Shown piece by piece: positions 839 to 7,703 of a stretch of 64,000 nt of DNA. The notes under the pieces were generated by a model. The model did no database searches, was not told the DNA's origin, and was given only the letters and a program-made list of their open reading frames with translations. This stretch comes from Flavobacteriales bacterium. Lineage in GTDB: Bacteria > Bacteroidota > Bacteroidia > Flavobacteriales_D > Parvicellaceae. The stretch is from NCBI GenBank assembly GCA_029251405.1, contig JAQXDK010000021.1:1-64000 (forward strand), given 5' to 3'. The position numbers and the translations under genes are program-made. Position 1 is the first letter of the stretch. Each line of letters opens with the position of its first letter.

Positions 839-2857
839 ATGAAAAATCTTGTTTATGTAATCCTAATTTTGTCTATTTCCGCTGTTTCTCAGGAATTAGG
901 TAATTACGGTTATCCTGTATACAGTGAAATTAACAATACTACTGGTGAGGCCGTTAACAACAGAGTAGGTGCCGGTAGATTTATTTCACGGGCTGAAGCG
1001 GCAAAAAGGATAAATATTAATAATGGTGCCGCAGGCACTTTTATATTAGGTCAAAATGCACAAATATTATTTGATTATGATAATGATGGAGATTTAGATT
1101 TCTTTGGATGGTTAGCCAACAAAACTCCTGTAGCAGGGGGAGCAAATGTATCCGGACCTGGGAAATGGATTTGGTGGCCAAACTATTATGATGAGAATAG
1201 TACTCCAATGTATTATGATTCTGAAGTTATTTGGGGCCCAAGGCCTGAGTTAAATGATTTTAATGGTGATGGCATTATCGATGTATTATGGCAAGTAGGT
1301 AACTTACATGAAGACGGGATAGGAGGCTACTATGGGGATGCCTATCCACTCGTTTTAATATATTTAAGTGCTAATTCGATTACAGAAAAATTAATTGGCT
1401 CTCCAACGGCACCTCATGATGTAACTACTGGAGATATAGATAATGACGGAGATGTAGATATAATTTCAGGGGAATGGATATTTGATAATTGTCAACATAT
1501 ATCAGTTCCTAAATTTTTAATAAATGATGGAGAAGGAAATTTTTCAGAATCAACAACAAATCTATTAGAGAGTAATGAATTTAGTCAAAATAATAGTTGT
1601 GTAGATATGATATTCATGTATTTGGGGCTATTTGACATGAATAATGATGGTAATTTAGATTTAATTGGCGCATATACATCTGGACAGGAAATTCCAGATT
1701 ACTTAGAACAACTCTACGAAAATACTGGGTATAACCCTAATAATCTTAATATTTTATATGGAGGTGGTGATGGTAATTTCTCATATTCAAATGGATATTC
1801 AATTGAACTAACTATTCCTGCTGATGCTTTAGAAATCAATGTAAATACGTTTGCTTTAGGAGGGAATTTTATTGATATAGATAATGATGGGTTTTTAGAA
1901 TTAGTAATAGCAGAAACATTTGACTATGCAGGTTGGGGTATAAGAATATACAGAAATTTAAATGGCACAGGTTTGGAAGATATTACTACTCAAGTAGTTC
2001 AAGATCCCATTCAGTTACACAGTGGAGCAAACGGTAGCTTCTCTCCTATTAAACCGGGTGATTTAGGAATATCTTATGATCTTCGAATTATAGATATTGA
2101 TAATGATGGAGATTTTGATATAATGCCGCGTTATACCATTACAGAAGATAACGGAAGTACCATAAATACAGCCTATTGGGAAAATAATGGTGGTGTGTTT
2201 AATCTTAAAAAAATTAATGATCCGATCTCTGATATAAATATATTTGATATTGTTGAGTTTTGGTTTTCATCTCAAACACCTGTTGAAAACACGTACGGAG
2301 ACATTTCAAACTGGGATGTTAGTGGGGTGACTAATATGAGTCAGTTGTTTAGTGCAAGAACTGACTTTAATTATGATTTAAGTAGCTGGGATATCAGTAA
2401 TGTAACCAATATGTTCATGATTTTTCACAGCTCAGGCCTATCAACTGCCAATTATGATAATATTCTAAATGGGTGGTCTCAGCAAGATGTACAACCAAAT
2501 GTTGAATTAGGAGCAGGCCCTACAATTTACTATTGTAATAGCAAAGATGCTAGAATGAGTTTAATAGAAAACTATAATTGGAATATTGTTGATGGTGGTT
2601 TAAATTGTTCTACTGCAAGTTTAGAGGAAGGAAATAAATTAAATATATCTATATACCCAAACCCTGTAAATGAAACCTTAATGGTTACAGGTAATATAAA
2701 TAAATTAACTGCTACTATTTATAATGTTTTAGGTCAAGTTATAACAGTACAAAAAATTACCAATACACTCGATTTAAGTAACTTATCTAAAGGAAATTAT
2801 ATCATTAAACTAAATGATGATAAGAATTTTATTATTAAGAAAGTACTAAAAGAATAA
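839..2857 (+). CDS. Secreted FG-GAP/VCBS and BspA-repeat surface protein with T9SS sorting domain
   Basis: This is a 672-residue protein predicted to be exported and fixed on the cell surface by the type IX secretion system. The start at 839 gives a clean signal peptide (MKNLVYVILILSISAVSQ); an in-frame ATG at 812 would only add a hydrophilic leader. About six calcium-binding-type FG-GAP motifs of the D-x-D-x-D-G form (for example DYDNDGDLDF and DIDNDGDVDI) spread over residues 75-440. A BspA/DUF285 segment follows at about 475-555 (NWDVSGVTNMSQLF, SWDISNVTNMFMIF). The last 70 residues begin ISIYPNPVNETL and end in a Lys-rich strand, the usual T9SS C-terminal domain. A binding or adhesion role is inference. 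It is flanked by hairpin repeats. Confidence 0.85.
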   Translation: MKNLVYVILILSISAVSQELGNYGYPVYSEINNTTGEAVNNRVGAGRFISRAEAAKRININNGAAGTFILGQNAQILFDYDNDGDLDFFGWLANKTPVAGGANVSGPGKWIWWPNYYDENSTPMYYDSEVIWGPRPELNDFNGDGIIDVLWQVGNLHEDGIGGYYGDAYPLVLIYLSANSITEKLIGSPTAPHDVTTGDIDNDGDVDIISGEWIFDNCQHISVPKFLINDGEGNFSESTTNLLESNEFSQNNSCVDMIFMYLGLFDMNNDGNLDLIGAYTSGQEIPDYLEQLYENTGYNPNNLNILYGGGDGNFSYSNGYSIELTIPADALEINVNTFALGGNFIDIDNDGFLELVIAETFDYAGWGIRIYRNLNGTGLEDITTQVVQDPIQLHSGANGSFSPIKPGDLGISYDLRIIDIDNDGDFDIMPRYTITEDNGSTINTAYWENNGGVFNLKKINDPISDINIFDIVEFWFSSQTPVENTYGDISNWDVSGVTNMSQLFSARTDFNYDLSSWDISNVTNMFMIFHSSGLSTANYDNILNGWSQQDVQPNVELGAGPTIYYCNSKDARMSLIENYNWNIVDGGLNCSTASLEEGNKLNISIYPNPVNETLMVTGNINKLTATIYNVLGQVITVQKITNTLDLSNLSKGNYIIKLNDDKNFIIKKVLKE

Positions 2858-2881
2858 CTTAATTTTATATAATTACAAAAA

Positions 2882-2931
2882 AAACGGTTACACTTTATAA
2901 AAGTATAACCGTTTAATTGTTTTAGTAGCGG
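2882..2931. repeat. Hairpin repeat, copy 2
   Basis: The stems pair 2882-2889 with 2907-2914 and 2892-2896 with 2900-2904. Compared with copy 1, the G facing U beside the outer stem is A here, so a G-U wobble becomes an A-U pair and pairing is kept. It lies 25 nt after the stop of the surface-protein gene and probably ends its transcript. Confidence 0.75.
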
Positions 2932-2942
2932 GAGTTGGATTC
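2926..2942 (-). other. Possible tRNA 3'-end remnant
   Basis: Read on the minus strand, these 17 nt (GAATCCAACTCCCGCTA) look like the T-loop exit, T-stem and acceptor 3' strand of a bacterial tRNA. The upstream part of a tRNA is missing: beyond 2942 no T-loop TTCG or anticodon arm follows. Such scraps can be left by integrating elements. The match is short and could be chance. Confidence 0.3.
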
Positions 2943-3060
2943 ATTTCTCCACGTTGTTCCGAAATGGGCCAAAAGCAGAAACAGCCCAAAGAAACTCCGA
3001 TTGCTTTACAATCTGATTTTTTCTTTTGTTTTCAAGACGATGCAAGCATCACTTGACCCC
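2943..3060. other. Noncoding stretch, nothing recognised
   Basis: Between the hairpin repeat and the tRNA terminator there is no ORF with convincing composition. The first half is noticeably richer in G and C than other intergenic DNA here. I see no tRNA, transposon end or known RNA family in it. Confidence 0.5.
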
Positions 3061-3093
3061 AAAATAAAAACTCCTTGATTTCTCAAGGAGTTT
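3061..3093 (-). terminator. Terminator of the initiator tRNA gene
   Basis: A perfect 11-bp stem pairs 3068-3078 with 3083-3093 around a 4-nt loop. Read on the minus strand it is followed by a T-rich tail (TTTATTTT), and it begins 5 nt after the tRNA 3' end. Confidence 0.9.
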
Positions 3094-3098
3094 CTTAG

Positions 3099-3171
<73 letters not shown>

Positions 3172-3174
3172 TTG

Positions 3175-3205
3175 CAAAGTTAATTTTTGTTTCTATTATT
3201 GCAAA
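3175..3205 (-). promoter_or_regulatory. Promoter of tRNA-fMet
   Basis: On the minus strand TTTG (3205-3202), 19 nt and TAACTTTG (3182-3175) match the Bacteroidota -33/-7 consensus perfectly, just upstream of the tRNA 5' end. This is the best promoter match in the window. Confidence 0.8.
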
Positions 3206-3219
3206 TTAAAATCTGTAAA

Positions 3220-4095
3220 ATGTCACATAAATCTGGTTTTGTTAATATAATAGGGAGTCCCAACGTTGGAAAGTCAACATTAATGAATCAATTAGTAGGA
3301 GAAAAGCTATCTATAATAACCTCTAAAATGCAAACCACTAGACATAGAATTATGGGTATGGTAAACGAAGAGGACTATCAAATTGTTTTTTCTGATACCC
3401 CAGGAATAATAGATCCACATTACAGACTTCATGAAAACATGATGAAATTTGTTTCAGAAGCACTAAAAGATGCAGACGTCATTTTAATGGTAACAGATAT
3501 TTATGAAGACGCTAATAAGATGGAAGAGAGATTGGCTCAAATAAACAAACTCAGTGTTCCAGTTCTACTTCTTTTAAATAAAATAGATAATTCAGAACAA
3601 AAGTCTCTTGAAAAATTAGTGAACGAATGGAAAATAAAATTACCTAAAGCTGAAATTCTACCTATATCTGCTCTGCATAATATGAGTATTCAGTTTATAC
3701 TACCAAAAATTTTAGAATGGTTGCCAGAAAATCCTCCATATTTTGATAAAGACCAGTTAACTAATAAAAACATGCGTTTTTTTGTTTCGGAAATTGTAAG
3801 AGAGAAAATATTAAAGATTTATCAAAAAGAAGTTCCTTATTCTTGTGAAGTAGTAGTAGAAGAGTATAAGGAAGACGAAAAAATTGTCAGGATTAGAGCC
3901 AATATTATGGTATCTAGAACCAGCCAAAAATCAATAGTAATAGGTCACCAAGGAAAAAAGATTAAAAAACTTGGAATCGAATCTCGTATAGATATTGAAT
4001 CTTTTATTTCTAAAAAGGTACATTTAGAATTATTTGTGAAAGTGGATAAAGATTGGAGAGATAAAGAAGGCAAACTTAAAAAATATGGATATTGA
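3220..4095 (+). CDS. era: GTPase Era
   Basis: Era is a 16S rRNA-binding GTPase needed for maturation of the small ribosomal subunit. The 291-residue protein starts at [14 protein letters not shown] (ATG at 3220); the in-frame ATG at 3187 would add an atypical leader and lies next to the tRNA promoter. G1 is [10 protein letters not shown]3 is DTPG, G4 is NKID. A KH domain follows from about residue 200, with [13 protein letters not shown] near the end. Length fits the family. Its stop codon overlaps the der start, so the two GTPases are translationally coupled. Confidence 0.97.
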
Positions 4096-5406: not shown

Positions 5407-6654
5407 CTAAAACCCAGCTTTGATTTTATCTACATAATCTAACTTTTCCCAAGGAAAAAGTTCAACTTCTATAGATATGTTTTTCCCATCTGCGGAAGTA
5501 AATTCTTTAGTTATTTTTTCGGCTTTTCTTCCCATATGGCCATACGCAGCAGTTTCTGAATAAATTGGACTTCTAAGTTGGAATCTTTGTTCAATAGCAT
5601 AGGGTCTCATATCAAAAATTTGATTTACTTTCTCGGCAATTTCTCCATCGTTCATAGGTACATTGCTAGTTCCATAAGTATTTATATAAAGTCCAACTGG
5701 TTCAGCTACTCCAATAGCATAAGCTACTTGTACAAGTACTTCATTAGCAATACCAGCAGCTACTAAATTTTTTGCAATATGTCTTGTTGCATAAGCAGCT
5801 GATCGATCCACTTTACTTGGATCTTTTCCAGAAAATGCTCCTCCACCGTGAGCTCCCTTACCACCATAAGTGTCTACTATAATTTTTCTTCCAGTAAGAC
5901 CAGTGTCTCCGTGAGGTCCACCTATTACAAATATTCCAGTTGGATTTACATGGTAACTTATATTTTCATTAAATAATTTCTGAATATGATCAGGTAAGAG
6001 TTTTTGCACTCTTGGTACCAATATATTAATAACATCTGTTTTAATTTTTGCCAACATGTTAGCTTCAGAATCAAAATCGTCGTGCTGAGTAGAAACAACT
6101 ATTGCATCAATTTTGATCGGATTGTTGTCGTCATCGTATTCAATGGTAACTTGTGACTTAGAATCAGGTCTTAAATAAGTCATTTCTTTACCTTCTCTTC
6201 TTATAGATGCCAGTTCTTTTAAAAGTAAATGCGATATTTCTAAAGGTAGTGGCATGTAGTTTTCAGTCTCTTTTGAAGCGTATCCAAACATCATTCCCTG
6301 ATCGCCAGCTCCCTGGTCTTCATCTTTACTTCTTTCTACACCCTGGTTAATGTCAGGAGATTGTTCGTGAATTGCTGAAAGTACTCCACAAGAATTTCCA
6401 TCAAACATGTACTCTCCTTTAGTGTAACCAATTTTATTGATTACATCTCTTGCAATTTTTTGTACATCTAAATAAGCTTTTGACTTTACTTCACCAGCTA
6501 GTACAACTTGACCTGTTGTAACTAAAGTTTCACAAGCTACTTTGGATGTAGCGTCAAATGCTAAAAAATTATCGATTAATGCATCTGATATTTGATCAGC
6601 TACTTTGTCTGGGTGTCCTTCTGATACAGACTCGGATGTAAATAAATAAGCCAT
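5407..6654 (-). CDS. metK: S-adenosylmethionine synthetase
   Basis: MetK makes S-adenosylmethionine (SAM) from methionine and ATP in the cytoplasm. The 415-residue protein has [15 protein letters not shown] near the N-terminus (methionine and ATP site), [10 protein letters not shown] near residue 115, the P-loop-like [14 protein letters not shown], and [19 protein letters not shown] near residue 275. Length is slightly above the usual 380-400. It converges with der, separated by only 10 nt. A SAM-II-type riboswitch lies 46-96 nt upstream, so the enzyme is probably repressed by its own product. Confidence 0.97.
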
Positions 6655-6699
6655 TTAAATAAACTAAAATTTAATAAATAAAAAATTAGAGGTAATGTT

Positions 6700-6752
6700 T
6701 TTGAATTTTTTAGCTTTTTTTGGTGGTTGCAAGCAGTCAAATCATTCCACTA
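6700..6752 (-). promoter_or_regulatory. SAM-II-family riboswitch in the metK leader
   Basis: On the minus strand the leader reads GUGG (6750-6747), then a loop with UGAUUUG, GCUUGCAA, then CCAC (6726-6723), an A-rich linker, AAGCUAAA, and UCAAA (6704-6700). P1 is GUGG/CCAC. The pseudoknot can form from loop UUUGA (6741-6737) with UCAAA, and loop GCUU or UUGC with AAGC/GC(U)AA. GAUUUG, CUUGCA and GCUAAA are hallmark conserved segments of SAM-II riboswitches, with SAM-V sharing the same core. Its place before metK fits the ligand. How binding stops expression is not obvious; no Shine-Dalgarno site is seen between 6699 and the start. Confidence 0.85.
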
Positions 6753-6794
6753 ATAAAAAACGTAAATGTAAAAAAATCTTTTTCAGTTAATATA

Positions 6795-7703
6795 TTATTT
6801 AGTGAGTTTTTTAAAAAGGTCTTCTAAATTATCTGTATGCTGTTGCATTTCAAGAATTAACAGATCATTTTTTTGAGCATATCTAGAAATTAATTTTCTT
6901 AAATCTTCTTTTCCATCGTAGGTAAAAACCCACTGATTTTCTTTAGATTTTATTGATGCTTTTGGAAATGATTTTTTTAATTCACTTAGGGTTGTTTTTT
7001 GTTCAAATTCCACTAATAGTTTTTGTTCTTTTTGTTCTTTCTTAGATTCTTTATTGTCGTCTAGTTTTCTATCAGCAACAATGTTACCATTGTTTATAAT
7101 AACAATTCTATCGCAAATAGACTCTACTTCTTGCATAATATGGGTGGACAGCATAACTGTTTTGTTTTTCCCTAAATCTTTTATTAAAGATCTAATTTCA
7201 TCCAACTGGTTGGGGTCTAATCCACTTGTTGGTTCATCTAGAATTAATACTTTTGGGTTGTGAACAATAGCTTGGGCAATGCCTACTCTTTGTTGATATC
7301 CTTTGGAAAGTTGACCAATTTTTTTGTGAGCTTCTTTGCTAAGTCCAACTTTTTCAATAACATTTTCAACAGCACTTTTAATGTCTTTTATTTTATGCAT
7401 TTGGGCAATAAAACCAATAGATTCTCTAACATAAAGGTCTTCGTATAAAGGGTTGTTTTCTGGTAAATAACCAATTTTACTTTTCACAGCTATTTCATCT
7501 GAATGTATTGAAACTTCGTCCACAAATACATCTCCTTCAGATGGTTTTATAAAACAAGAAATAATTTTCATAGTAGTAGATTTTCCAGCTCCGTTGGGAC
7601 CTAAAAACCCAACAATTTCTCCAGAATTTACTTGAAAACTAACATTGTCTAGAGCTAATTGCTCGTCGTAATATTTACTGATATTTTGAATTTTTATACT
7701 CAT
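6795..7703 (-). CDS. gldA: Gliding-associated ABC transporter ATP-binding subunit GldA
   Basis: A 302-residue ABC ATPase that energises the GldAFG transporter needed for Bacteroidota gliding. Walker A is GPNGAGKST (near residue 35), the signature LSKGYQQRVGIAQA, Walker B VLILDEPTSGLD, and the switch histidine lies in LSTHIMQEVE. The C-terminal 80 residues form the accessory domain, including a Lys/Glu-rich KESKKEQKEQK stretch. The permease genes gldF and gldG are not adjacent. Related CcmA/NatA-type ATPases look similar, so the Gld assignment rests on overall resemblance and on the other Gld/Por genes here. Confidence 0.85.
   Translation of the reverse strand: MSIKIQNISKYYDEQLALDNVSFQVNSGEIVGFLGPNGAGKSTTMKIISCFIKPSEGDVFVDEVSIHSDEIAVKSKIGYLPENNPLYEDLYVRESIGFIAQMHKIKDIKSAVENVIEKVGLSKEAHKKIGQLSKGYQQRVGIAQAIVHNPKVLILDEPTSGLDPNQLDEIRSLIKDLGKNKTVMLSTHIMQEVESICDRIVIINNGNIVADRKLDDNKESKKEQKEQKLLVEFEQKTTLSELKKSFPKASIKSKENQWVFTYDGKEDLRKLISRYAQKNDLLILEMQQHTDNLEDLFKKLTK

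Follow-up and report, generated by a model that had tools for sequence, protein, structure and literature searches.

The window, a 64-kb stretch of DNA from a Flavobacteriales bacterium, carries on its minus strand the gene metK, preceded by a short structured RNA element. We scanned the whole window against all 4227 families of Rfam 15, applying the Rfam gathering cut-offs (44 bits for RF01726 and 36 bits for RF00521). Four matches lay above cut-off: three tRNAs and RF01726 (SAM-II, "long loops"), which matched the minus strand at 6756-6700 with 57.9 bits (E 1.7e-8), spanned the entire model (positions 1-60), and was the sole riboswitch match within the 64 kb. The metK AUG (6654) follows the aptamer end (6700) with 45 nt between them, where an earlier reading of this DNA from its letters (the sequence-only reading) had given 46 nt, and TIGR01034 confirmed the identity of the gene. 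That reading had also described a leader lacking a Shine-Dalgarno site, and we found none before the metK AUG. The upstream gene on this strand stops about 40 nt short of the aptamer; its product is a GldA-like ABC transporter ATPase, whose 393 bits fall slightly below the cut-off of 402.6 set for GldA. A predicted promoter box fits the flavobacterial -7 box, TAnnTTTG, which occupies positions -12 to -5 (PMC9723704); because of this fit, transcription is expected to start near 6758, about 8 nt before P1. Relatives carry TACATTTG/TACATTTA or a similar box at the equivalent position.

Table 1. Features of the metK leader and gene in the window.
Feature	Position	Strand	Evidence or remark
-7 promoter box TACATTTA	6763..6770	-	Predicted; fits Bacteroidota consensus TAnnTTTG
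SAM-II aptamer (RF01726), sequence UUAUUAGUGGAAUGAUUUGACUGCUUGCAACCACCAAAAAAAGCUAAAAAAUUCAAA	6700..6756	-	57.9 bits
P1 5' strand GUGG	6747..6750	-	Sequence and Rfam alignment; partner CCAC 6726-6723
AUUUG, third strand expected in the P2 major groove (SAM site)	6738..6742	-	Role inferred from SAM-II/SAM-V structures (PMC6061858)
P2 pseudoknot 5' strand UUGC	6729..6732	-	Conserved; pairing predicted from the SAM-II structure
P1 3' strand CCAC	6723..6726	-	Sequence and Rfam alignment
GCUAAA, P2 3' strand GC(U)AA	6709..6714	-	Conserved; expected role, after the SAM-II structure
Candidate anti-aptamer helix, 5' arm, UUAGUGGAAUGAUUUGA	6737..6753	-	Partner 6704-6686; 15 bp, -10.9 kcal/mol
Candidate anti-aptamer helix, 3' arm (leader), UCAAAAACAUUACCUCUAA	6686..6704	-	Predicted pairing with 6753-6737
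metK, S-adenosylmethionine synthetase, 415 aa	5407..6654	-	TIGR01034, 509.8 bits (cut-off 309.4)

The sequence-only reading had assigned the element to the SAM-II family or to SAM-V, and had proposed RF00521 and RF01826 as the covariance models to run. Neither fits. In a permissive scan of 6500-7000, RF00521 reached 17.4 bits against its cut-off of 36, and SAM-V (RF01826) gave zero matches at E values up to 10; we therefore rejected both as the family, SAM-V also on account of the missing Shine-Dalgarno site. The SAM-II part of the assignment stands through RF01726, which supplies a covariance match above threshold. Features of that family seen here are the score, the elements P1, AUUUG and UUGC/GC(U)AA in this order, and a position in the leader of a methionine/SAM gene. 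The element is almost certainly a genuine SAM-II riboswitch aptamer belonging to RF01726, with SAM as its predicted ligand. The earlier proposal that a SAM-II family element controls metK we count as borne out from the RF01726 match together with the identity of the gene.

The GUGG/CCAC stem seen from the sequence alone was recovered as P1, and the segments GAUUUG (6743-6738), CUUGCA (6733-6728) and GCUAAA (6714-6709) do follow one another on the minus strand in the expected order. The core (AUUUG, UUGC, GCUAAA) is kept across about 140 loci, of which AUUUG was itself demanded by the pattern used for collection. The bulged U of GCUAAA should contact the adenine of SAM. P2a, a helix of the CUG/CAG type, varies over the family: the linker ACUG has no complement right after GCUAAA in the window, and consistent complementarity was not found among the collected leaders, so P2a was rejected as a conserved helix.

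A further pairing, UUUGA with UCAAA, had been put forward as the pseudoknot partner. The two stretches are complementary (6741-6737 and 6704-6700), but a role as the ligand pseudoknot is unlikely. In SAM-II and SAM-V structures the UUUG stretch is the third strand of a triplex (PMC6061858), which would make UUUGA/UCAAA incompatible with the ligand-bound form, and UCAAA after GCUAAA is not conserved in relatives; we rejected it on these grounds. The ligand pseudoknot would instead be formed by UUGC and GC(U)AA, with AUUUG as the triplex strand, and UUUGA/UCAAA is better read as a portion of an alternative, anti-aptamer helix.

RF01726 elements occur above cut-off in 36 of the 199 genomes drawn from the order and in 41 of the 296 drawn from the phylum, and in both draws carriers nearly always hold one per genome. 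The window genome is no different: its next RF01726 score, 25.7 bits, falls inside a protein-coding ORF and was rejected as a second copy, leaving one SAM-II element. Searching the GTDB contig collection by sequence pattern yielded at least 118 loci, mainly in Bacteroidales and also in Flavobacteriales, Chitinophaga and others, with metK directly downstream in about 114 of the 118 among the matches listed; altogether the aptamer stands ahead of metK in more than 110 Bacteroidota loci. One locus with another neighbor, from a Bacteroidota bin (L043:2092-2135, plus strand), has the aptamer directly 5' of an MFS transporter gene (388 aa, 2229-3395) instead of metK; that this transporter is methionine- or SAM-related is a guess, its NCBIfam matches being weak and general to MFS proteins. 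Another locus, from an Acidobacteriota bin (L081:2036-2080, plus strand), has the aptamer upstream of an ORF whose start, judged by eye, resembles methionine synthase.

Within the genus of the window there is one natural riboswitch loss (G040, L162), in which the promoter tttttttacatttac is kept about 100 nt before metK with no SAM-II aptamer, and one decayed copy (G108, 39.3 bits). These cases lend some credit to the idea that the window element, too, is a degenerate or non-functional remnant. The window copy, however, keeps every conserved core nucleotide and has the highest score in its genus, and we consider such decay very improbable here.

The leader between the aptamer and metK can pair with the 5' part of the aptamer. 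In the window, UUAG-u-GG-AAUG-a-UUUGA (6753-6737) would pair with UCAAA-aa-CAUU-a-CC-u-CUAA (6704-6686), a helix that includes UUUGA/UCAAA. At 37 C its predicted energy has p about 0.05 against shuffles; at 15 C the ligand-free leader is predicted to adopt it as its minimum-energy fold. We compared the aptamer 5' part with the leader in the 133 leaders of at least 35 nt, from 140 distinct aptamer-to-metK leaders. Complementarity had a mean z of -1.01±0.10 against dinucleotide-shuffled leaders and -0.99±0.10 against shuffled aptamer segments; a 3' part of equal length, used as control, had -0.22±0.09. The genus of the window (six sequences, with at least two different sequence variants) had -1.42±0.13, and because the sequences are related these figures, like those of the swap test below, overstate independence. 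The swap test exchanged aptamers between species, with similar leaders down-weighted. Measured against row and column means, a leader's own aptamer gained 1.79 kcal/mol in pairing (permutation SD 0.21), and the window's own aptamer beat 95% of foreign aptamers. The 3' control also deviated significantly (-0.53), so part of the swap effect reflects lineage or shared composition. Together, these comparisons support a predicted anti-aptamer complementarity that recurs throughout the family and shows specificity for the aptamer.

The 140 leaders comprise some in which the AUG adjoins the aptamer, some that bear terminators, and a remainder, the window included, with neither. In five (L051, L064, L109, L110 and L114) the metK AUG lies 1-7 nt behind GCUAAA, again with no Shine-Dalgarno site; the pseudoknot itself would therefore cover the start codon. 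Such leaders, and the borderline significance of the window's complementarity by itself, would suit a scheme in which the SAM-bound pseudoknot alone acts as a roadblock or occludes ribosome landing, the leader complementarity being incidental. In the window, however, about 45-55 nt separate the end of the pseudoknot from the AUG, more than the usual 30S footprint, and the complementarity recurs across the family in an aptamer-specific manner. We regard an action of the pseudoknot alone as rather unlikely.

Control of transcription has to be weighed as well. Here SAM binding would permit an intrinsic terminator in the leader to form, as proposed for most proteobacterial SAM-II elements, and the literature describes SAM-II as mainly transcriptional (PMC2258182; PMC6061858). 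Terminator-like hairpins followed by U runs were found in 19 of the 140 leaders, mostly from Bacteroidales, where shuffles led us to expect 1.7. Neither the window leader nor any leader of its genus has such a hairpin, and the U-rich stretch at 6685-6660 of the window has no G+C stem before it. We therefore rejected an intrinsic terminator in the window leader, and transcriptional control of this metK seems improbable.

In SD-less Flavobacterium, structure near the start tunes translation, and in this phylum initiation relies on an unstructured start rather than on a Shine-Dalgarno sequence (PMC6847099). We calculated the energy needed to unfold the region from -15 to +12 of the AUG, with the aptamer either free to pair or excluded from pairing, using an energy model that leaves out pseudoknots and co-transcriptional folding. 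Relative to shuffled leaders, the start was harder to open in the bound state, with a mean z of 1.02±0.21 for 30 leaders from the order and 1.88±0.22 for 84 others. This modelled closure is consistent with an OFF switch acting on translation in a phylum without SD dependence. For the window's own leader closure was small and did not reach significance (0.39 kcal/mol, p 0.23 at 37 C; 0.46 kcal/mol, p 0.33 at 15 C), and it was absent from four of the six genus members; we thus rejected start-region sequestration in the window leader as a significant effect at either temperature. In the window, then, modelling supports the switching helix and not its effect on the start region. Elsewhere, one metK leader (L034) shows a textbook exclusive pairing, in which AUUAUCCCU could bind either the aptamer (GGAGGGAUU) or AGGGAUAAU, which immediately precedes the AUG; the calculated cost of opening the start is 11.6 kcal/mol bound versus 4.6 kcal/mol free. 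L034 would be a good bench model.

The explanation that we somewhat favor overall is repression of metK at high SAM by a cis-acting SAM-II riboswitch, via anti-aptamer exchange and access to the start; in it we infer SAM binding, the direction of regulation and the transcription start. The RNA would begin about 8 nt before P1. When SAM is lacking, the 5' half of the aptamer (the P1 5' strand and AUUUG) would pair with the leader at 6704-6686; when SAM is bound, P1 and the P2 triplex pseudoknot would form and the anti-aptamer helix would be lost. The freed leader, the compact pseudoknot, or both would then reduce 30S access to the SD-less start region, and less SAM synthetase would be made. From the pathway, the element is very probably an OFF switch; the chance that it acts on translation through anti-aptamer exchange is about even. 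A wider reading is tentative and somewhat less probable: that in Bacteroidota SAM-II elements lacking a Shine-Dalgarno site, exchange between anti-aptamer helix and bound pseudoknot sets how open the start is, with the start codon 1-7 nt past the pseudoknot in some relatives and terminators in others. In the literature searched, we found no description of Bacteroidota SAM-II expression platforms, whether anti-aptamer, AUG-adjacent pseudoknot or terminator. The value of the locus is as a test case for translational riboswitch action in a phylum whose ribosomes ignore Shine-Dalgarno sequences, and the family supplies natural variants with different expression platforms.

As a riboswitch the element is ordinary: an RNA of a catalogued class that would give product feedback on metK. 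Corbino et al. (2005, PMC1273637) described SAM-II and mentioned members in the Bacteroides group, and Weinberg et al. (2010, PMC2864571) listed the motif that became RF01726, "SAM-II long loops: Bacteroidetes, marine"; the element's class membership is therefore the re-finding of a known kind, a SAM sensor ahead of metK. With SAM-V (RF01826; PMC6061858) it has in common the type of pseudoknot core, the expected SAM site, a weak or absent P2a and, on the favored explanation, translational control; SAM-V control hides a Shine-Dalgarno site, whereas the window leader has no such site and no Rfam match to SAM-V. With the alphaproteobacterial SAM-II RF00521 (PMC1273637) it shares GUGG/CCAC, GAUUUG, CUUGCA and GCUAAA in order, but members of that family often have terminators, which the window element lacks, and its score against that model is low. 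Compared with the RF01726 model (PMC2864571), the loop that links P1 to GCUAAA lacks three bases and the canonical P2a partner CAG of the consensus is absent; the core, the phylum, the cis-regulatory role and the position upstream of metK are shared, in a full-length match above cut-off.
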